64,000 nt of DNA from assembly GCF_000769655.1 (NCBI RefSeq), contig NZ_CP008887.1, forward strand, positions 1,240,001 through 1,304,000, read 5' to 3'. This document shows, one piece after another, positions 24,903 through 34,609 of the stretch. This stretch comes from Thermococcus eurythermalis. Its GTDB lineage: Archaea; Methanobacteriota_B; Thermococci; Thermococcales; Thermococcaceae. The number at the start of each line of letters is the position of its first letter. The first letter of the stretch is position 1. A model generated the notes under the pieces. The model saw only the letters and a program-made list of their open reading frames with translations, was not told where the DNA came from and ran no database searches. A program made the translations under genes and the position numbers.

Positions 24903-25207
24903 ATGAAAATTGAAGACGCTATCACGGCCATTCTCTACGGTGTCTTCCTCCTCTTCGCCGTTCCCTTCTTCCTCTACTGGAGCTCGGCCATCGTTGACAC
25001 GCTCGGAGTTGACCGGCACCTTCCTTTGGAGGCCACACCCATTCTCGTGGTTGCCATGGCGTCGTTGGCTTTCACCGGCGTCGCTCTGATACCCGGATTG
25101 CGTTTAGAAGCAGGAAGAACCTTAAAAAGCCCGCCGTTGCGTTTTTCTCGGTGAGCTTTGCCTTTGCCCTCTTCCTCCTCTGGCTCGGCTTTTTGAGCAC
25201 AAAATAA
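24903..25207 (+). pseudogene. Small membrane protein gene with a frameshift
   Basis: From ATG 24903 (GAGGTGAAT upstream) a frame of 83 codons encodes two hydrophobic helices (about 7-28 and 45-65), then runs out at 25152-25154 with a non-membrane tail. Shifting by one base at the CCC run (25092-25094) gives a natural continuation: RSRKNLKKPAVAFFSVSFAFALF, a third helix and a stop at 25205-25207. This fits a one-base deletion in a roughly 101-residue membrane protein. A base-calling error or true frameshifting could also explain it. Confidence 0.6.
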
Positions 25208-25276
25208 CCTTTTGTTTTCCGGATGTATTCATCAGCGTACTTAATTACTCTTCTTTCTTTTAACCACTCGCCCTCA

Positions 25277-25358
25277 TAAAACCCAACTCCAAATAAATTT
25301 ATACTCGAAAAAAAAAGGAAGAAGTTTTACTTATAGTAAAAGAAAAAGCTTATATATG
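25277..25358 (+). repeat. Duplicated leader module, copy 2 (A-tract, hairpin, TATA)
   Basis: Parts in order: AACCCAACTC, AAATTTAT, nine A residues, GGAAG, a hairpin TTTTAC/GTAAAA (25325-25341), then AAAGCTTATATATGC as the TATA box. It aligns with 18086-18165. It lies about 45 bases before the secreted-protein gene at 25403 and probably provides its promoter. Confidence 0.6.
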
Positions 25359-25402
25359 CTAACGTTCGTAAGTGTTATGAAAACTCTCAGAAGGTGAACC
25401 AC

Positions 25403-26731
25403 TTGAGATGGAAACCTATGTTGGCAGTCCTCCTGGGTCTGCTGATGGTTGGAGTGACGGCAGAGACTGGAAGTGCAAGCACCATCCCCAGTCCAGCAGA
25501 GGATGATAACCCTCTGGGATATGTAAGGCTTGATCAAGGATTCAAACTCCTATTAGATGATGGGACAATGTTAAATCTAGCCCAAAAGCCTGCAAGCACT
25601 AATATCGTGAGGGATAGCAGCTTTACAAAAATTGTCAAAAAATACCACTTAAGGAAACTATTTGTTTCGGAGATAACCTTTGTTGAAAGAAACAAACTAA
25701 AAACCATTCTCGTTATCAGTTCTAATGAGACTACGAATCTAACAATATTGTGGGATGTGCATTCTCCCGCTTTCAGAGATCTTAATGGTGTGAGCACTAA
25801 GGAAACTCGCCCCTATGGGACGGTCCCATCAGCAATCATAGGCCAATATGGTAATACTAAATTTGCTTTGCTGTATAGTGATGTTTATTCAAAATTTAAG
25901 TCCTCAACCATAACGGGGCATGGAATCTCTCTGACCTTTGGAACATTTAGTCTGGCTCAAAATGAAACACTGAATATAGGAGAGTTTGAAGTCTCTATTC
26001 AAAGAGTTCCTTCCACTAGTATGGTTCCCATGAGGAGAACCGAGTATTATTACCCATCGCCTGACACTTACCCGATAAAAAGGTATTTCGACATCTATGA
26101 CCACGATGGCAATGTAATCGGGAGAACTGTTGTGACAATCTATGGAAGTAGGAAAAGAGGGAGCAACTATGCATATCTTGAAGATGGAGTTGAAGGAGTT
26201 ACATCGGTTGGCTATGCAGTAGCACCAAAATACGGGAAGTTCCACTCACTATACACCAAATTCGAATTCTGTGGGGGTTATTTCGGTTCAGGATATCCAA
26301 ATGTTCCAATAAAACTCAATTATGATGCTATCGGAGGGGATCGTACTAGTATACAATTTACTGAAGTGCACAAAACGCTCATTGACCTTGTTTCTAATTA
26401 CATTGAAGGTGGGGGATTTGTAGGTATTTTGCTAAATGGTCTGTCTGCAGAAAGCAAGAACGACCGGGGTACAAACGTTTTGACTAAGTATTATAGAGGA
26501 CCAATCTCCATATCATCGCGGGGAGTAATATTGTACTATCTAGGGGCGGATGAAATAGGTCAGTATTATACATACACAGTTCATTTGCCATATGAGCTAG
26601 ACGAAGACATGGTAAAATTCTGCCTTACGGTAAAACCTGGGATTGCAGTACCTCACCCCTCATTTCCGACAGACAGACTTTATACAAGGGAATACTCAAT
26701 ACCAATATGGATCTCATTACAAAGGCCTTAA
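25403..26731 (+). CDS. Secreted AT-rich protein of unknown function
   Basis: About 442 residues with an N-terminal signal peptide (MLAVLLGLLMVGVTAETGSAS) and no other membrane helix. The mature part is rich in Tyr, Ser and Thr and beta-like. I know no family. TTG 25403 follows GGTGAACC; GTG 25394 and ATG 25418 are alternatives. Codon third positions are visibly AT-richer than in neighbouring genes (AAT, ATA, GAA, TTT common), suggesting transfer. A second secreted-protein gene follows after 17 bases. Confidence 0.7.
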   Translation: MRWKPMLAVLLGLLMVGVTAETGSASTIPSPAEDDNPLGYVRLDQGFKLLLDDGTMLNLAQKPASTNIVRDSSFTKIVKKYHLRKLFVSEITFVERNKLKTILVISSNETTNLTILWDVHSPAFRDLNGVSTKETRPYGTVPSAIIGQYGNTKFALLYSDVYSKFKSSTITGHGISLTFGTFSLAQNETLNIGEFEVSIQRVPSTSMVPMRRTEYYYPSPDTYPIKRYFDIYDHDGNVIGRTVVTIYGSRKRGSNYAYLEDGVEGVTSVGYAVAPKYGKFHSLYTKFEFCGGYFGSGYPNVPIKLNYDAIGGDRTSIQFTEVHKTLIDLVSNYIEGGGFVGILLNGLSAESKNDRGTNVLTKYYRGPISISSRGVILYYLGADEIGQYYTYTVHLPYELDEDMVKFCLTVKPGIAVPHPSFPTDRLYTREYSIPIWISLQRP

Positions 26732-26748
26732 TCTGGAGGTAATTGTAT

Positions 26749-27699
26749 ATGCAGTTGAGAGGCAGTACATTGAGTAACCTTAGAAGGTTCTTGACCTTCT
26801 ATTTCATTTATGCCCTTCTTTTTAATTTAGTAGTCTCCCAATCGTCATTATTGACAGAACAAAACCATGAGCTTACTCACGGGAGGGAGATTAGTATAAC
26901 TGGAATAACCTATAGCAGCGGTCTAACCTGCTGGAACTCGACCAAGGAAGCCACTAACTACCGCTATTTGATCTGTCGCTTCAGCGTATCCAGAAAAGTT
27001 CCCATAAGCAGGGGGCTTAAAGTTGATTTCTCAGCTGAGTCGCTGGACTTATTTGAACTTGAGCAGGTCAGAGAGGATGTAATAATCAAACTTCCCTTTG
27101 GGTTCAAAGGACGCAAAACACTAAAACTCAAGGTACAGCTCTATGACGTCTGGTGGATTGGGGTTATTGTGCCACATCATGTGGAAGTCGTTCTAACTTT
27201 TGAGTGTACGGATGAGGAGTGTCACTTGCGGAAAATTGAAAAAGGGGCGAGTTCACAGTCCCATTCTCTTCTTCACAACTTCCAAAGCCCTCTCAGCATC
27301 GCTCTTGAACTCCGGATACCCAAGCTCCTCCATAGTCTCTGGCAACGGAACGCCGAGCTCCTCGTGCCAGCCTCTGAGCCTGTAGAACTCCCTCCTCGCC
27401 TCAAGGAAGTCATTGTAGTCGATGAAGGCCGCGTTGCCCTTGGCCGGCCCGTCCGGCTCGGGTTCCCACCAGCGAGGCGGAATCGTATCGTCGAGTGGAG
27501 GCGTCACCCAGTCGAGGGTATCGTGTATCCTTGCTATGCTCTCGACGGCCCAGGCGACCTTCCTGAGCCCCTCAACCGTCCACTCCTCGCCGGTTGCCAG
27601 CGAGTAGAACCTTGCAAGGTCTTCCATCTTGTAGGGGACGAACTTGCAGACACCGAGCATGTCGGTGATGTAGCTCTCGTCCCTGCCCTCGATGAGTGA
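26749..27699 (+). CDS. Secreted hypothetical protein; 3' part is antisense to WOR4
   Basis: ATG 26749 follows GGAGGT at good spacing. The first 165 or so residues have a signal-like helix (RRFLTFYFIYALLFNLVVS) and a plausible ectodomain with paired Cys. From about 27250 the frame runs opposite the WOR4 coding sequence for some 150 codons, and the composition becomes that of an antisense frame. The likely true gene is 26749 to about 27250 with its own stop lost. AT-rich codon use matches the gene before it. Confidence 0.55.
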   Translation: MQLRGSTLSNLRRFLTFYFIYALLFNLVVSQSSLLTEQNHELTHGREISITGITYSSGLTCWNSTKEATNYRYLICRFSVSRKVPISRGLKVDFSAESLDLFELEQVREDVIIKLPFGFKGRKTLKLKVQLYDVWWIGVIVPHHVEVVLTFECTDEECHLRKIEKGASSQSHSLLHNFQSPLSIALELRIPKLLHSLWQRNAELLVPASEPVELPPRLKEVIVVDEGRVALGRPVRLGFPPARRNRIVEWRRHPVEGIVYPCYALDGPGDLPEPLNRPLLAGCQRVEPCKVFHLVGDELADTEHVGDVALVPALDE

Positions 27700-29109
27700 C
27701 GGGACGAGCTCCTTGGCCGACCCCTGGTTCGGCAACTGGTGAGGCCTCGGCCAGCCCCTCAGGTGGCTCGCTCCCACATCTGCTGTGGCGTAGCTGAGAG
27801 CGTAAGTCCTCCTTCCGCGCGGGTCCCAGGCGGGGCTCTCCATGCCCTTGACGTGAACCGCGAACTCACAGCCCCTGCCGAGCCTCTCACAGGCCCGCTT
27901 TACGCCGTCTGCTAAAATCGCCCCAATGCCCTTCCTCTCGGCCATCAGCCTGATGAGCCTCTCCTCGGCCTCCTCGTCGCCGAAGCCCGTGACAGGGAAG
28001 CCTATCTCCTCCTCGCTTATGAGACCCCTCTCGACCAGCTCGAAGAACCAGGCTATTGTGTTGCCCGTCGCTATGCTGTCGAGGCCGAGGTTGTTGACGA
28101 GCCAGTTGAAGTAGGCAACGGCAGGGAAGTTGAAGACGCCCGTTGCCGCTCCGAGCATCGCGATGCTCTCGTACTCGGGCTTGACGCGGATTTTCCTGCC
28201 CTTATACTCGACCTCTACGTAGCGGGCGCACTTAATCGGACAGCTCTTGCCGTGGACGAACCACTCGGGCTCTACCTCGTACTTCTTAATCTCATCACCC
28301 CCGAGTTTGCTGGCAAGCTCATCGGGGATGTAGGGCCTTGAGAAGTTGTAGGCCGGGCTCATGCCGAGCGAAGCCGAGCTCCTCAGCCCATCACTCGTGC
28401 CGTAGTTTCTTGTATGCTCGTACTTCGGGTCGGTCGCGAAGTGCTCGTAGAACTCCTGCCAGAGCCTCTGGAACTCCTCCGGGCTGGCAACCCCTGGTTT
28501 CTCCCCGGGCTCAACTACAATTGCTTTAACCTTCTTGCTTCCGAGGACGGCCCCAAGGCCACCCCTTCCGCTCGCACGCTCGGTGTCGTAAATCACGTTG
28601 GCAATCCTGCTGAGCCTCTCTCCAGCGGGACCGATTAAAGCCAAGCTCGCCTTCGGGTGTTCCTTCCAGAGTTCCTTGGCCACCTCATAGTTTCCTTTAC
28701 CCCAGAGGTGCCCTGCGTCCCTAATCTCCACCTCACCATCATGAACGTAGAGGTAGACGGGCTCCTCGGCCTTACCCTCGATGATGAGCGCATCGAAGTG
28801 TCCCTTGAGCTTTGGACCGAAGGCGTCTCCACCGCTGGAGTCGCTGATTAATCTGGTTTCGGGGCTCTTGCTGACCGCTATGACCTTGCTCGAACCCGGA
28901 ATTAACCCGGTCAAACCGCCAGTTGCAAATACGAACTTGTTGGCCGGGCTTAGCGGGTCAGTCCCAGGGGGAACCTCCCGATAAATCAGGTAGTATCCGA
29001 GTCCCTTTCCGCCGATGAACTTCCTTATCACCTCGTCGGGCAGTTCCTCGTAGGTGACCTTTCCCTCGGTCAGGTTCACGCGGGCTATTCTGTTATGGTA
29101 TCCGTGCAT
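27253..29109 (-). CDS. wor4: Tungsten-containing aldehyde ferredoxin oxidoreductase family, WOR4 type
   Basis: A 618-residue AOR-family enzyme: a tungstopterin enzyme passing electrons to ferredoxin. The N-terminal AOR domain (NRIARVNLTEGKVTYEELPDEVIRKFIGGKGLGYYL) and GAVLGSKKVKAIVV are typical. The cluster-binding Cys are C290 and C294 (SCPIKC) and C488 (MLGVC). The position of the first ligand in AOR is Gly287, so only three Cys remain. That agrees with P. furiosus WOR4, which I recall as having a [3Fe-4S] cluster. Its substrate is unknown. GAGGTGG precedes the ATG. Confidence 0.88.
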   Translation of the reverse strand: MHGYHNRIARVNLTEGKVTYEELPDEVIRKFIGGKGLGYYLIYREVPPGTDPLSPANKFVFATGGLTGLIPGSSKVIAVSKSPETRLISDSSGGDAFGPKLKGHFDALIIEGKAEEPVYLYVHDGEVEIRDAGHLWGKGNYEVAKELWKEHPKASLALIGPAGERLSRIANVIYDTERASGRGGLGAVLGSKKVKAIVVEPGEKPGVASPEEFQRLWQEFYEHFATDPKYEHTRNYGTSDGLRSSASLGMSPAYNFSRPYIPDELASKLGGDEIKKYEVEPEWFVHGKSCPIKCARYVEVEYKGRKIRVKPEYESIAMLGAATGVFNFPAVAYFNWLVNNLGLDSIATGNTIAWFFELVERGLISEEEIGFPVTGFGDEEAEERLIRLMAERKGIGAILADGVKRACERLGRGCEFAVHVKGMESPAWDPRGRRTYALSYATADVGASHLRGWPRPHQLPNQGSAKELVPSLIEGRDESYITDMLGVCKFVPYKMEDLARFYSLATGEEWTVEGLRKVAWAVESIARIHDTLDWVTPPLDDTIPPRWWEPEPDGPAKGNAAFIDYNDFLEARREFYRLRGWHEELGVPLPETMEELGYPEFKSDAERALEVVKKRMGL

Positions 29110-29163
29110 GTTAATCCACCTCGAACCATTAAGAGCCTTGTATTAATGGAGTTTAACAGAAGT

Positions 29164-29174
29164 GCTTATATAAG
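29164..29174 (-). promoter_or_regulatory. TATA box of the WOR4 gene
   Basis: CTTATATAAG, a symmetric TATA element about 60 bases before the WOR4 ATG on the minus strand. The mRNA would start near 29140 with a leader of about 30 nt that includes GAGGTGG. Confidence 0.55.
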
Positions 29175-29200
29175 TTGCGCAGATTTCGCAAGGTTTACAG

Positions 29201-30856
29201 CTAAGATACTTGAATCAGTTTTCTATTTTCAACATCCACTGTGAAAACCTTGACCCGGTCTCTATATTTTGTCGAAGTCCACTTTATAAACGCATGCACT
29301 TCGTTCTTGAAGAGCAGGTAGGAAGAGGGAGGCAGTACTATCCACAACTCGGATTTGGTTGCCAGCCTGCTCTCAACGTCCTTTCTTAGTTTCAGGAGGG
29401 GAAGGGCTTCTCCGTAGAAGGTCTCGATTTCAATTGCAATGTCTTGAGGTTTGTTTTGGTTTCGGATTTTGACGTACACGTCTATCCTTATATCTCCCTC
29501 GGGATACTCGGTTTCTATGTCGTCAGGACTAACGCCGTAATCCTCCACCAACCGTTCGAACACAAAGGCCTTCAGGGCGTAATGAGTCAGGCTTTCCCCC
29601 GGGTTGCCTTCGATGTACAGGGCCGATGGAATGGCCTTGCCCTTTATGCGGATTGTTCTCGTGTAGCTCTCCACGAACTCACGGTATTTGCTTTCAAGAT
29701 ATGGGGCGAGATAATCAAACTCGATGTTTGCAACCTTATGCTCCTCATGGAACCCCCAGAAATTGTGTATGAGCCTGCATAAACTTTTGGGGGAGTTTAA
29801 CTTGATTCCTACCCACTCTTGAACTAGAGACACCCGAATGCTATTTGAGTTTGAAACGTGCGTCACTAACCCGAACACCTTCTCTTTCACCCAGCTGAGG
29901 AACTCCTTATCACCGTAAAACACCAAGAATCCAAAACTCTGGGAGAAAAGCTCCCTAACCTTTTCGGTCATTGCTTGTAGATGTTGTTTTCCCAGTTCTT
30001 CTTCCGGTTTCTTTCCTACTTCCCAATCAATGACAAAGATGGAGTTTCCTGCCCTGAGAGACTGCAACCTCTCCGGGTCTCCGGGCAACATAACGTGGTA
30101 CGCAGTTGGCAACCCACCGACCCTTACACGATACAGCTCTCTGAGGAGGCGCTTCAGGAATTCTATGTATCCAAACTCCTTTTCTTTGGGCTTTTTAGCG
30201 AGGATTATAACGGGCCCCTCTGGGAGGAACGACACCCCTAAGCCAAAGGCCTTTGAAAACACGTCCTCGGCAGGGAGCTCTATCTCCGGAACTTTTCCCC
30301 CGGACTTGGTGGCGGTGAGCAACTCAACTTCTGTGGTTATTGAGTAACCAACGTTGCCGGACGATTTCAGGAAGACCGGCGTTATTACCGGAATGGAAAA
30401 CGAACTCAGGTCTCTCCCCTGTGGGGTTCTAACATCTTCAGTGACGTTTAAGGTCACTGGGTTGGGCTCCTCAAAGTGGACCTCTGGAAGTTTTTTGGTG
30501 ATTGCGTCAAGTAGATGCACGGAGTGAGGGGTGAAAACTTCCGTTCTAACGTCTATGGCTCCAACTTTCTCAGCTTTAAGAAACACCAGCTTCTCAATTG
30601 GCCTGATTTTGGTGAGGTCAAACGGCTCTGGGGGTGATACGGTCTCCGTGATTCGGATGGTAACGTCAGCAGGCTTCTGAAACACCGGTATGAGCAGGGG
30701 GACTTTAATGGTTCGCTTTTTGATGGGGGTAGTTTTGGTGCCCTCTTCCTTTGATACCATTGCACTTGGAGTGGCCTCAGTAACGATGATTTCTTCCTCA
30801 GTCCACCATTTTTTCTTTGTTTCGACTTTAACTTTAGTCTTCGTTAGCTCTCCCAT
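29201..30856 (-). CDS. Repeat protein with C-terminal PD-(D/E)xK-like nuclease domain
   Basis: A 551-residue protein, last of the four-gene operon. After a basic start, residues about 50-185 hold four degenerate beta repeats of 30-40 residues (PVFQK...ITETVSPP; LVFLK...VRTEVFTP; VTLNVTEDVRTP; PVFLK...ITTEVELL). The middle (190-400) is unassigned. The C-terminus (about 420-510) has the restriction-endonuclease-like pattern: helix with E421, D459 in GDIRIDVYV, and E476/E478 in IAIEIETFYG. The usual Lys is Glu here. Its start overlaps the upstream gene by 13 bases. Confidence 0.7.
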   Translation of the reverse strand: MGELTKTKVKVETKKKWWTEEEIIVTEATPSAMVSKEEGTKTTPIKKRTIKVPLLIPVFQKPADVTIRITETVSPPEPFDLTKIRPIEKLVFLKAEKVGAIDVRTEVFTPHSVHLLDAITKKLPEVHFEEPNPVTLNVTEDVRTPQGRDLSSFSIPVITPVFLKSSGNVGYSITTEVELLTATKSGGKVPEIELPAEDVFSKAFGLGVSFLPEGPVIILAKKPKEKEFGYIEFLKRLLRELYRVRVGGLPTAYHVMLPGDPERLQSLRAGNSIFVIDWEVGKKPEEELGKQHLQAMTEKVRELFSQSFGFLVFYGDKEFLSWVKEKVFGLVTHVSNSNSIRVSLVQEWVGIKLNSPKSLCRLIHNFWGFHEEHKVANIEFDYLAPYLESKYREFVESYTRTIRIKGKAIPSALYIEGNPGESLTHYALKAFVFERLVEDYGVSPDDIETEYPEGDIRIDVYVKIRNQNKPQDIAIEIETFYGEALPLLKLRKDVESRLATKSELWIVLPPSSYLLFKNEVHAFIKWTSTKYRDRVKVFTVDVENRKLIQVS

Positions 30857-31986
30857 CCCATAATCACCTGGCAGTTGATTTTATTGTCCTGTCCCTCCAG
30901 GACTGCAAACCCGCAGAACGCAAGAGGGGCTATGAATGCTATGAACTCGGTATAGTTTACTCCATTTTGCGGTCCGGATTCGAACTTTAATTTGCCCCCA
31001 TTTATCGTGGCGTTTCTCTTATACACTCTGAACGGGTCAGGAACTCTGAGGGAGTTGAAGTCATCATTGTAGGAATAGCTGGAGGTTATTGCCCGGTACA
31101 CATTCTTCAGTTCGTCCAAGGGTATCGTATCCTTCAGCCTTTCCGAGTACACCTTCAGATACTTCTCAAACTCGTCCTCGACTCCGAAGAAGTCTCCAAG
31201 CTCCCAAATCTGGAAGAGCCTGTAGCAGTCGAGGATTACCTTGTAAATTCTGTGCCCGACGGTGCCCGGTTTTAGCCCGACGACCGCCCGCCTTTTCCTC
31301 TCCCGTTCCAATGGCAGGTCGGGTAAAATAACGTCCTCCAAAACGATGCCGTATTGACGTAGGAGCTCCTGAACGTCTTCAGTGAACAATTTGGAATAAC
31401 TCTTTTCCAGATAAAAGCGGGGTGTTGAGCAGATGGAGACTATAAAGCATGACATTGGGTTAAAGAGTGGCAGGAGCTCCTTTGCCGCCGAGAGGAGTTC
31501 GCCAACGACCTGCGGCCCGGTCATCGGGGACGACAATGAAATCTCACCCACCGTTGGTGGTTTCCTCCCAAGTTCATCAAAGATTTCCACGAGGTTCTCT
31601 CTCATCGAGCGAAGTAAATCCGTGAAATTCGTCCTAACAAGCTTTGGCTTGACCCCGGAGGACGCGCTCTCAAGGTCTATGCCCTCCTTGAGGTAGGAGA
31701 CTATCCTCTCCATATCCTCTCGGGTTATCCCGAATCCGAGAATCTCGGAGTAGAACCTGGCGAGGCCGTTTTTCGCTATGCCATCTTCGTTCAGACCCCC
31801 AAACAGAACCTTTTCCCAGATTTTGTTTTCTTTGAGGAGAGCATCAACGGTTCTGTCGCCTGCTTCCTCAAGCAGCCAGTCCCTCAGCCTGAGAACCCCC
31901 TCGATTTTCACGTAAAGGTGGGAGAGCTGGGCTATGTACTCTTCCCACGCCTTTTCATCATGGTAGGGTATCCTCTCTTCAATCAT
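30844..31986 (-). CDS. Unknown protein, third gene of the Ntn-hydrolase/nuclease operon
   Basis: A soluble 380-residue protein with no family I recognise. It is mainly helical up to about residue 320 (YIAQLSHLYVKIEGVLRLRDWLLEEAG; LYRLF-like stretches; KYLKVYSERLKDTIPLDELKNVYRAI). A short C-terminal beta-rich part follows with AFIAPLAFCGFAVLEGQ. No signal peptide is seen. GGAGGGG lies before the ATG. It overlaps the upstream gene by 8 bases and the downstream one by 13, so translation is coupled and a joint complex is plausible. Confidence 0.7.
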   Translation of the reverse strand: MIEERIPYHDEKAWEEYIAQLSHLYVKIEGVLRLRDWLLEEAGDRTVDALLKENKIWEKVLFGGLNEDGIAKNGLARFYSEILGFGITREDMERIVSYLKEGIDLESASSGVKPKLVRTNFTDLLRSMRENLVEIFDELGRKPPTVGEISLSSPMTGPQVVGELLSAAKELLPLFNPMSCFIVSICSTPRFYLEKSYSKLFTEDVQELLRQYGIVLEDVILPDLPLERERKRRAVVGLKPGTVGHRIYKVILDCYRLFQIWELGDFFGVEDEFEKYLKVYSERLKDTIPLDELKNVYRAITSSYSYNDDFNSLRVPDPFRVYKRNATINGGKLKFESGPQNGVNYTEFIAFIAPLAFCGFAVLEGQDNKINCQVIMGWES

Positions 31987-32884
31987 CGTATCCCCTCCAT
32001 GACAGTATCGTCCTAACCCTCTCTACGACTTCAGGCGGTACGTCCGAGATTATCCCCCTTATATTGACGGCGTTCTTCCAGATGTCGAGTGCGAAGGGAG
32101 GGACGATGTTTTTATCTGCAGATGCGATGAGACCAGCTTTGTATAGCTCTTCCCGTAGCCGCCATTTGTCTGTTTCTGGTATGTGTATTGTTCCCTGAGA
32201 AACGATATCACGTAGCGTATCAAGGACTCCCAAGTCAAATGAATAACCTTGGAATATTCTTGGGTATGCTGACAAAATAACGACAGTAAGTTTTGCGTCA
32301 GATGAAAGAACTCTGATATTCTCCATAATCTCCTTTTCAAAATATTCAACGACCTCTGGGGTATTCCCAAGGATGAACCCTGCCGCCTTTGAGAGTATCT
32401 TTGCTGGTTCAATGTAAACAGATTTATAACCAACTTCAAATTCAAGCGTGTCTCCTTGGTTTTCAACGTATTTCCGAATACCATCTCCAAGACTGTTAAC
32501 TGTGCTGTTGTAAATCTGCCTTGCAGTTATCTTCTCATCTATTGAACTTGGATTCTTAATAATGGTGTCAAGGGCACTCCGAGCACTTGCTATGATGTCA
32601 GATTCGTGAGATTTCACAGTCTGCTTGGTGATTGCTATGAGGGTTTTGTATTCAAGTATCCTGATGTTCCCGACCCCACAGTATTCCCGACGGTGGCATT
32701 CAACCTCAAGTATTTTTGGATAACTGTACAACTCTGGATGTGCAATCAACCAAACCGCCAATAGCTCCCGGTACCTTTTCTGCTCAACGAATTCCTTTGT
32801 GAGGAACTCACGAAAGATGTCCTCCAGCTTTTTCTCCACGGCATCCTTAACTCTGTCCCTTATTATCTCCCTCACGTCGCTCAT
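31979..32884 (-). CDS. Unknown protein, second gene of the Ntn-hydrolase/nuclease operon
   Basis: A soluble protein of about 301 residues with no recognised family. The N-terminal 70 residues are helical and charged (REIIRDRVKDAVEKKLEDIFREFLTKEF). A region with two Cys (ECHRREYCGVGNIRILEYKTL) follows, then an alpha/beta part (KLTVVILSAYPRIFQGYSFDLGVLDTLRDIV). ATG 32884 has GGAGG nine bases upstream; TTG 32893 is less likely. The reading frame overlaps the Ntn-hydrolase gene by 38 bases. Codon use is AT-richer than in the flanking housekeeping genes. Confidence 0.7.
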   Translation of the reverse strand: MSDVREIIRDRVKDAVEKKLEDIFREFLTKEFVEQKRYRELLAVWLIAHPELYSYPKILEVECHRREYCGVGNIRILEYKTLIAITKQTVKSHESDIIASARSALDTIIKNPSSIDEKITARQIYNSTVNSLGDGIRKYVENQGDTLEFEVGYKSVYIEPAKILSKAAGFILGNTPEVVEYFEKEIMENIRVLSSDAKLTVVILSAYPRIFQGYSFDLGVLDTLRDIVSQGTIHIPETDKWRLREELYKAGLIASADKNIVPPFALDIWKNAVNIRGIISDVPPEVVERVRTILSWRGYDD

Positions 32885-33683
32885 CTTCTCCAACCTCCGC
32901 CAGCGAGGTTAAGATGAGTTCCTCAACTTTATCCTCGCCAAGGACATCGCAGAGGAGCATGAGCTCCTGAATCAGCTCCTTCCGTTTTCTGACCTGCTCC
33001 TTGAACTCTCTCAGGGCCTCTTCGTTTATGGCGCCGAGGGCTACTTTTCCGTCTTCAACTCTCATGAGCCAGCTCTCGCCGACGAAGGGGCCGACTGAGG
33101 GGTCAATTTCGCTGACCATGTCCACTATGAACGTGGAAAGCAGGCCCCAGTTAAGTTCTACTCTCGGCGAGTAGCCAAGGAGTCTAAGGAGCAGAAGGCC
33201 GCCGGTTATAGAGCCCGAACCAATTATTGCGAACCCGGGAGTGTCGTGAACAGGCTCCGCGAGTCCCCTGCTGTCGAAGTGATATATCGAAGCCCTCCCA
33301 TTCGGGTCTACACTTGACAGAATCATGTTGAAGCTCACGTCAATTCCCATCTCCCTAAGCTCTCTGAACCTCTTAATCAGGGCTTTTTCCACCTCACCGA
33401 CAATCCACCGAAACTCCTCCTGAGTTGGCGTTGTGTTCTCGCCTTCAGTCTCTATGTATTTTTGGGTGACCGTATCAACAACGTGATACCCGTATTTGAC
33501 AATCGCGGCGTCTCCGGAACCGCCGGCTATCGCCACGGGGATGCCATTGACGAATACCGGGTGAATCTTCTTGGCCTCGTACGTTACAGGGCCGTACGTG
33601 ACTCTGGAGTCCGAGACCATCAAAACGGCATCGTGGTTTTTCTCCCTGTCCCAAATCCATTTCAGAGCCAAAACTAATGTCAT
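32847..33683 (-). CDS. Proteasome-beta-like Ntn hydrolase, first gene of the operon
   Basis: A 278-residue protein beginning MTLVLALKW. Removal of Met would expose a catalytic Thr as in proteasome beta subunits. Counting Thr as 1, the next landmarks follow in order: VSDSRVT (Asp24, matching Asp17), AKKI (Lys37/38, matching Lys33), then AIAGGSGDAAIV (the AG oxyanion loop). IIGSGSITGG resembles the S-G-D/S late motif. A helical extension of about 60 residues ends the protein. GTG 33692 would add three residues and bury the Thr. The Ntn fold is likely; the substrate is unknown. Confidence 0.72.
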   Translation of the reverse strand: MTLVLALKWIWDREKNHDAVLMVSDSRVTYGPVTYEAKKIHPVFVNGIPVAIAGGSGDAAIVKYGYHVVDTVTQKYIETEGENTTPTQEEFRWIVGEVEKALIKRFRELREMGIDVSFNMILSSVDPNGRASIYHFDSRGLAEPVHDTPGFAIIGSGSITGGLLLLRLLGYSPRVELNWGLLSTFIVDMVSEIDPSVGPFVGESWLMRVEDGKVALGAINEEALREFKEQVRKRKELIQELMLLCDVLGEDKVEELILTSLAEVGEDERREGDNKGQS

Positions 33684-33778
33684 CCAAAACACTAATATTA
33701 GGGAGAAGTGTTTCCCAATTTAAGGTTTACCCTTTGTGGACAGAACAAGCTAAAAATCTGTTCAAGAAAAAGTAAACA

Positions 33779-34609
33779 TTATACCACGCATAACTTTGCC
33801 CTCTCCCTATCTTCCCTGCTCAGCCTCCACCCCATCGCTCCCGCGTTCTCCTCTATGTGCTCCTTTCTGCCGGCCTTGGAAATAGCGATAACGTTCTCCT
33901 CCCATATCAGGTAGTTGAGCGCGACCTGGGCCGATGTTTTTCCATATTTTCTTCCAATCTCGGCCAGGCAGGGGTTCCTCGCGAGCGAGCCCTTCTCCAG
34001 AGGGGTGTAGGCTATGAGGGCAATCTTCTCGCGCTTCATGTAGTCTAGCAGGCCGCTCGTCTCGGGCCAGCGGTCGCGGAGGGAGTACTTCACCTCGTTG
34101 GCGACTATCTCATACTTTCTCATCGCCTCCTGAGACCGTTTCAGAAGCTCCAAATCGAAGTTGCTGACGCCAATGTAGTGAATGAGTCCCTCATCAACCA
34201 GCTCCTCAAGGGCGTGGAGGGTCTCTTCTATTCTTTTCCACTCCGTCCCGGGCCAGTGGAGGAGGTGAAGGTCAATGTAGGTGCCGAGCCTCTTGGCGCT
34301 CTCCCTTACCGCTCTCTTCGCCCTTTCGTAGCCAAAGTTCGTGGGCCAGACCTTGCTTATGATGAATAGCTCGTCCCTATCAAAACCCTCAATGGCCCTT
34401 CCGACGAGCTCCTCGGAATGACCAGCGCCGTAGAACTCGGCGGTGTCTATGAGGTTAATTCCCAGCTCAAGGCCGTAGCGGAGAACCTCGACGCTCTCCT
34501 CGTCCCTGGAGTAGTCGGGGCTCTCATAGCCACCTATTCCCCAGGTGCCGAGGCCTATCGCGGTTACCTTATCATCCCCAATACCTTTCAGGTCTCTAAA
34601 AGTGCTCAC
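33779..34609 (-). CDS. Aldo/keto reductase
   Basis: A 276-residue (alpha/beta)8 oxidoreductase. The tetrad is visible: Asp in NLIDTAEFY (with Tyr four residues on), Lys in FIISKVWPTNF, and His in LHLLHWPG. GTWGIGG lies near the N-terminus and YTPLEKGSLA later, with the C-terminal NADPH segment AISKAGRKEHIEENAGA. The substrate is unknown. Start GTG with GGTGAT upstream. It is minus-strand, 95 bases beyond the Ntn-hydrolase operon. Confidence 0.9.
   Translation of the reverse strand: MSTFRDLKGIGDDKVTAIGLGTWGIGGYESPDYSRDEESVEVLRYGLELGINLIDTAEFYGAGHSEELVGRAIEGFDRDELFIISKVWPTNFGYERAKRAVRESAKRLGTYIDLHLLHWPGTEWKRIEETLHALEELVDEGLIHYIGVSNFDLELLKRSQEAMRKYEIVANEVKYSLRDRWPETSGLLDYMKREKIALIAYTPLEKGSLARNPCLAEIGRKYGKTSAQVALNYLIWEENVIAISKAGRKEHIEENAGAMGWRLSREDRERAKLCVV

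Follow-up and report, generated by a model that had tools for sequence, protein, structure and literature searches.

A candidate archaeal conflict module pairing a predicted nuclease with a proteasome-type hydrolase in Thermococcus eurythermalis

Why would an archaeon carry a proteasome-like hydrolase gene in the same overlapping cassette as a putative nuclease gene? Such a cassette lies on the minus strand at positions 29201 to 33683 of the stretch analyzed here (the window), 64,000 nucleotides from the 2.1 Mb genome of Thermococcus eurythermalis (G000; contig NZ_CP008887.1, positions 1,240,001 to 1,304,000). A first-pass annotation of the window had described four overlapping frames whose products might act together as a defense or stress-response system in which proteolysis gates the nuclease. 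The reading frames agree exactly with that description. Gene 1 (33683-32847) encodes 278 amino acids (aa) counted from an ATG, with an alternative GTG start possible at 33692, and is followed by gene 2 (32884-31979, 301 aa), gene 3 (31986-30844, 380 aa) and gene 4 (30856-29201, 551 aa), with successive overlaps of 38, 8 and 13 bases. The GC content of genes 1 to 4 (0.53, 0.44, 0.50 and 0.48, respectively) is below that of the two flanking genes (0.56-0.59); the first-pass annotation had called the cassette AT-richer in part. Pairwise ratios of nonsynonymous to synonymous substitution (dN/dS) against the homologous cassettes of two relatives (G010 and G025) were 0.08-0.20 wherever they could be computed; thus, the four genes are under purifying selection and translated rather than chance open reading frames. 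We propose, with a probability of about 0.5, that the cassette is an archaeal conflict module, probably antiviral, whose core is a nuclease pair (genes 3 and 4) gated in some lineages by an N-terminal nucleophile (Ntn) protease (gene 1).

The gene 3-gene 4 core

The C-terminal module of gene 4 is present in 21 of 115 Thermococcota genomes. Profile searches also recovered it in 26 of 394 Halobacteriota and 37 of 398 Thermoproteota genomes, two phyla that we sampled after a degenerate-pattern scan had found the pair in Alkanophaga and Sulfolobales assemblies. Across the three phyla genes 3 and 4 adjoin with overlaps or short gaps, and at 38 of the 43 gene 4 homologues examined outside Thermococcota, gene 3 or a short paralogue of it lies directly upstream, which makes the core a two-gene unit. 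Thermococcota carry this unit in three architectures: type A with genes 1 to 4 (genes 1, 3 and 4 in G092), type B with genes 3 and 4 only, and type C with a larger, more divergent version of the same two genes. Most carriers have the core but neither gene 1 nor gene 2, and the four genes are not equal parts of one unit. The co-occurrence in unrelated genomes that the first-pass annotation had named as support is borne out, but not for all four genes as a unit: the gene 3-gene 4 pair spans three phyla, whereas gene 2 has homologues only in Thermococcales (the window genome, G008, G010, G025 and G088) and gene 1 is sometimes found alone. In the neighborhood of cobalamin-type genes, the window genome has a second, divergent type B copy (L030; G000:C1, ~1671700-1675070), whose two proteins are 376 and 733 aa long.

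We take gene 4 to be the core effector, with a predicted nuclease domain of the PD-(D/E)xK type at its C-terminus (29204..29605, minus strand). Invariant in the last 130 residues are H425, K429, D459, the E476-x-E478 pair and K489, and E450 is also invariant within the Thermococcales set. Among the 81 homologues in which both motif sites could be aligned, 75 combine the aspartate with ExE and 6 combine it with DxK; this exchange at one aligned position connects ExE, which is unusual, with the canonical motif PD-(D/E)xK and bears out the restriction-endonuclease-like motif noticed earlier. BamHI likewise uses ExE. In the AlphaFold model of gene 4, of low confidence (predicted local distance difference test score, pLDDT, 45), the order of helices and strands in residues 423-508 fits the alpha-beta-beta-beta-alpha-beta core of these enzymes, though pLDDT is low here as well. 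Foldseek searches with this model returned PaqCI (probability 0.95) and BamHI (0.66-0.80), with E values of ~0.01-0.09. The resemblance to both enzymes extends to the catalytic aspartate and (D/E)x(E/K), but gene 4 differs from them in its distinct middle domain, its long disordered arm and a sequence with no detectable similarity to solved chains; a search of the PDB with the single sequence gave nothing useful. Can2, Cdn1 and VC1899 also appeared in the Foldseek list at low probability and, given the low confidence of the model, any analogy to CARF nucleases is a lead only. Profiles of gene 4 found no relative in the viral-contig collection and no match in phages.

The rest of the protein falls into two parts. 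The N-terminal arm (30272..30856, minus strand; residues ~1-195) is predicted to be disordered and carries recurrent hydrophobic-Pro-x-hydrophobic segments. These ~200 residues, modeled with pLDDT <50, are better characterized in this way than as the 'beta-repeat region' of the first-pass annotation. The arm is longer in some homologues (for example, at L030 and L183). The middle domain (29852..30259, minus strand; residues ~200-335) alternates strands and helices in a Rossmann-like manner in the secondary structure of the model and is conserved in the homologue alignment; we saw no nucleotide-binding motif in it.

Searches of Pfam, NCBIfam and PADLOC assigned genes 2 to 4 to no family, in keeping with the earlier statement that the two middle proteins resemble nothing known. 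Weak Pfam and NCBIfam matches of genes 2 and 3 to HlyE and lipo_BTA121 fell below cutoff and were rejected, and profile comparison likewise rejected gene 3 as a ZacA-like protein. The product of gene 3, the core partner, is mostly helical; its AlphaFold model (pLDDT 59) matched no fold in the PDB with E <1. Gene 2 encodes an accessory helical protein. Its profile comparison with gene 3 was not significant (probability 7.6), and its status as a gene 3 paralogue is unproven.

A proteasome-type hydrolase attached to the core

Gene 1 scores 23.2 bits against the Pfam Proteasome family PF00227 (gathering score, 22.4), and all seven members of its own family, drawn from three phyla, match it (best E 4.5e-17). 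The encoded protein (minus strand) begins with Met-Thr, so that removal of the methionine would leave Thr2 as the mature Thr1. In the alignment of the seven members, Thr2, Asp25, Lys39 and the oxyanion residue Gly54 are invariant, and they fall on the reference positions Thr1, Asp17, Lys33 and Gly47 of the proteasome (PMC8665760). A profile built from these members had as its top PDB matches archaeal proteasome beta subunits, including that of Thermoplasma (E 0.001), although a single-sequence search of the PDB returned nothing useful. The profile found no relative in the genome-contig and viral-contig collections. Judged from its sequence, the product of gene 1 belongs to the proteasome-type Ntn hydrolases and has intact predicted catalytic residues, as its annotation with proteasome-beta landmarks behind an N-terminal threonine had anticipated. 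It is not an ordinary archaeal 20S beta subunit, a candidate that we rejected at 12.7 bits against the TIGR03634 equivalog cutoff of 224. By description it resembles the divergent families surveyed by Fuchs, Alva and Lupas (2021), among them WPH, ACC, connectase and Anbu and some of them archaeal, in having a threonine directly after the methionine and a C-terminal helical extension (PMC8665760). That survey reported no informative genomic context; gene 1, in contrast, has a recurrent nuclease context. Gene 1 and the ~560-aa M28-type peptidase-like proteins of Thermococcales (L035:4633-6321, L036 and L037) have a C-terminal tail in common, a small domain outside the catalytic fold that spans residues ~199-268 in gene 1 and the C-terminal ~75 aa in the other proteins. 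We rejected the peptidase-like proteins as Ntn homologues, for only the tail is common to both.

In 10 of the 13 cases that could be evaluated, the Ntn gene has a homologue of gene 4 next to it; these cases span three phyla, and the Ntn gene is either upstream or downstream. Six further matches, which were fragments or lay at contig ends, are excluded from this count. The distance between the two genes in the adjoining cases is within ~1.3 kb and mostly within 400 bp. All six full members of the Ntn family in Thermococcota belong to type A cassettes and lie upstream of gene 3. Elsewhere the order varies: gene 3-gene 4-Ntn in G706 (L183), gene 3-gene 3-gene 4-Ntn with gaps of 1-20 bp in G642 (L202), gene 3-short paralogue-gene 4-Ntn with a 1-bp gap in G267 (L149), and, in G614 (L203), Ntn followed by genes for proteins of 100 and 308 aa (the latter gene 3-like by eye only) and a DxK-type gene 4. 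In a tree built from 70 gene 4 modules, nine members are linked to an Ntn gene and occupy five separate branches. Their distribution takes 5 changes, a count that leaves the cut-off contig of G039 out, and a single clade of linked members is rejected (p-AU 4e-39 in the approximately unbiased test). Separate gains would account for this scatter, as would repeated losses from an association of long standing; either way the link between the Ntn gene and gene 4 matters.

Two loci deserve separate mention. The fullest outside Thermococcales (L202:2944-9506) has in one operon an ATPase-like gene, the two tandem gene 3 paralogues, gene 4 and the Ntn gene. At L207:36-3156 an Ntn relative at the contig start is followed by an uncharacterized 413-aa protein, and RAMP-like genes (CRISPR type III-like, by eye) occupy the other strand.

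Insertion site and genomic neighborhood

The cassette is part of an inserted segment (29110..33778) between the stop codon of a gene that we take from its sequence to be an aldo/keto reductase (AKR, 33779-34609) and the start codon of a gene, presumably of the aldehyde-ferredoxin-oxidoreductase type (AOR, 27253-29109). In each of the eight cassette-free Thermococcus-group relatives checked, AKR lies directly next to AOR, with a one-base overlap (TGATG); the cassette of the window, like those of G010 and G025, is placed precisely between the two genes. Type A cassettes occupy other sites in G088 and G092. The empty sites and the different points of insertion mark the locus as variable, a feature that the first-pass annotation would count as support. 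There are also signs of loss: G008 (L024:4824-6486) has a near-identical cassette with genes 1 to 3 intact, gene 4 in pieces and the AOR gene reduced to a stump, and G086 retains a gene 4 remnant at the site of the G088 cassette. Such a pattern of gain and decay is usual for accessory conflict genes. The segment after gene 4 (29110..29200, minus strand) contains the TATA-like sequence TTATATAAG, with similar sequence in L022 and L023, and probably serves now as the promoter of the downstream oxidoreductase gene. Beyond that gene, positions 25001-27000 of the window are strongly AT-rich (GC 0.41-0.42) and hold a gene for a 445-aa protein with a signal-peptide-like start (25394-26731), followed by another open reading frame; similar proteins are encoded downstream of AOR in L022 and L023.

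Several homologous units have defense genes as neighbors. A haloarchaeal BREX operon (L155:1-17423), with pglX, pglZ and a second pglX-like gene, holds a gene 4 homologue and, in split form, a short gene 3 paralogue; these have a BrxC-like ATPase gene on one side and pglX/pglZ on the other (the BrxB and BrxC labels were assigned by eye), and the embedded block also has a nucleotidyltransferase-like and winged-helix gene pair. The gene 3-gene 4 pair adjoins HmaB/HmaC-type genes at L074, a SIR2 protein gene at L165 and AbiE and VapC-like genes at L027. On a Halorussus pelagicus plasmid (L038:4299-13125) ZacA-like and ZacB-like genes precede a gene whose 1403-aa product carries the gene 4 module at its end and does not match ZacC, with DUF3883 nearby; this locus is a possible Azaca variant. 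Gene 4 homologues thus adjoin or sit inside Azaca (ZacABC), BREX and Hma loci, yet genes 1 to 4 match no component of these or other systems in PADLOC 2.0 up to E = 1. The cassette itself does not have the ZacA, ZacB and ZacC set that defines Azaca; only the Halorussus neighbors match ZacA and ZacB. Nor did we find this gene set described in the open-access literature, so the original remark that no named system contains it still stands.

A proposed gated nuclease and its alternatives

How might the parts work together? In the model that we favor, gene 3, as the near-constant partner, would probably keep gene 4 inactive or couple it to a sensor. The Ntn hydrolase, accompanied in the window by gene 2, would have been added to this core in several lineages, where it may gate the nuclease: a cut in the arm of gene 4 or in gene 3 would release DNA or RNA cleavage on infection. 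The disordered, repeat-bearing arm is the obvious candidate for a protease substrate or docking region; the main alternative is that gene 3 is an inhibitor that the protease removes. Most units are without an Ntn gene and must, therefore, have another trigger, which would make the Ntn hydrolase a lineage-specific second control. Bacterial immune systems offer a precedent, having repeatedly taken up a nuclease proenzyme together with the protease that activates it (PMC12799240). Like the trypsin-nuclease pairs of Hachiman and AVAST and the caspase-nuclease pair canu, the archaeal cassette joins a nuclease gene and a protease gene that were recurrently brought together in unrelated contexts. The bacterial pairs, however, use a nuclease of the metallo-beta-lactamase type and a trypsin- or caspase-like protease (PMC12799240), whereas the archaeal cassette would use a PD-(D/E)xK-type nuclease, a proteasome-type Ntn hydrolase and the additional, near-constant gene 3. 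The resemblance is, at most, a functional analogy and not homology. The recurrent pairing of the Ntn gene and gene 4 agrees with the initial idea of a nuclease gated by proteolysis, in which control would run from the protease to the nuclease. A defense role is suggested by the patchiness and mobility of the units, the nuclease-type effector and selected contexts.

Several observations weigh against this model. The replacement of ExK by ExE could mean changed or lost catalysis in most gene 4 members, and the structural comparison depends on a model of low confidence. Most carriers have no Ntn gene at all, so its proteolysis cannot be essential to the core, and three intact Ntn relatives (in G711, G551 and G306) stand alone, away from gene 4. 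Furthermore, many gene 3-gene 4 loci lie in housekeeping surroundings, and there was no clear excess of PADLOC matches among 143 near neighbors compared with 141 genes 5-6 positions away. The defense or stress role first suggested for the cassette thus draws support from single loci (BREX, Hma, SIR2, Azaca-like and AbiE) but not from any overall enrichment of neighbors.

The absence of such enrichment would also suit a role in DNA maintenance or in a mobile element (transposition or repair), with gene 4 as a TnsA- or CoiA-like nuclease, as would the clean insertion of the cassette and the weak match of one gene 4 homologue to the Pfam family CoiA_nuc (E 0.085). We consider this unlikely, for the cassette has no recombinase or transposase among its genes, terminal repeats were looked for and not found, insertion sites differ between genomes and one gene 4 homologue lies within a BREX operon. 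About as improbable is a passenger role for the Ntn hydrolase, along with gene 2, as an independent module such as a connectase-like protein ligase or processing enzyme that shares insertion sites with the core. The many gene 3-gene 4 units without an Ntn gene and the Ntn relatives alone at L204, L205 and L206 fit such an arrangement, but passengers would hardly be expected to adjoin gene 4 in 10 of 13 cases, now upstream and now downstream of the core and on five branches of the gene 4 tree, or to lie in overlapping reading frames as in the window.

Less easily set aside, though still doubtful, is a toxin-antitoxin-like pair in which gene 3 inhibits a nuclease toxin encoded by gene 4 and is degraded by the Ntn hydrolase or, elsewhere, by housekeeping proteases, with gene 4 itself left uncut by the Ntn hydrolase. 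The partner is encoded upstream in a fixed order with overlapping genes, the pair occurs without other genes and near toxin-antitoxin genes (VapC-like at L026 and AbiE at L027), and its distribution is patchy and mobile, all of which such a pair would explain. Gene 3 is, however, large for an antitoxin (300-480 aa) and has tandem paralogues at L202, L149 and L165, and gene 4 is itself large and multi-domain.

The nuclease module gated by an Ntn protease, to which we return as the preferred reading, may have a wider meaning. Tentatively, the cassette would belong to a widespread, undescribed archaeal immune system in which the gene 3-gene 4 complex repeatedly recruited an Ntn switch, the first proteasome relative to act as a prokaryotic immune signaling protease and a parallel to the trypsin- and caspase-gated nucleases of bacteria. 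Functional context is almost entirely lacking for the more than 20 proteasome-like families known from prokaryotes; here one of them gains a recurrent, testable partner, a predicted nuclease. The immune repertoire of archaea is poorly mapped, and genes 3 and 4, present in ~7-18% of the sampled genomes of three archaeal phyla and without a match to any defense-database model tried, are a concrete candidate for it. Should the protease indeed gate the nuclease, protease-triggered nuclease immunity would have been assembled independently in archaea and in bacteria, out of enzymes that are unrelated.

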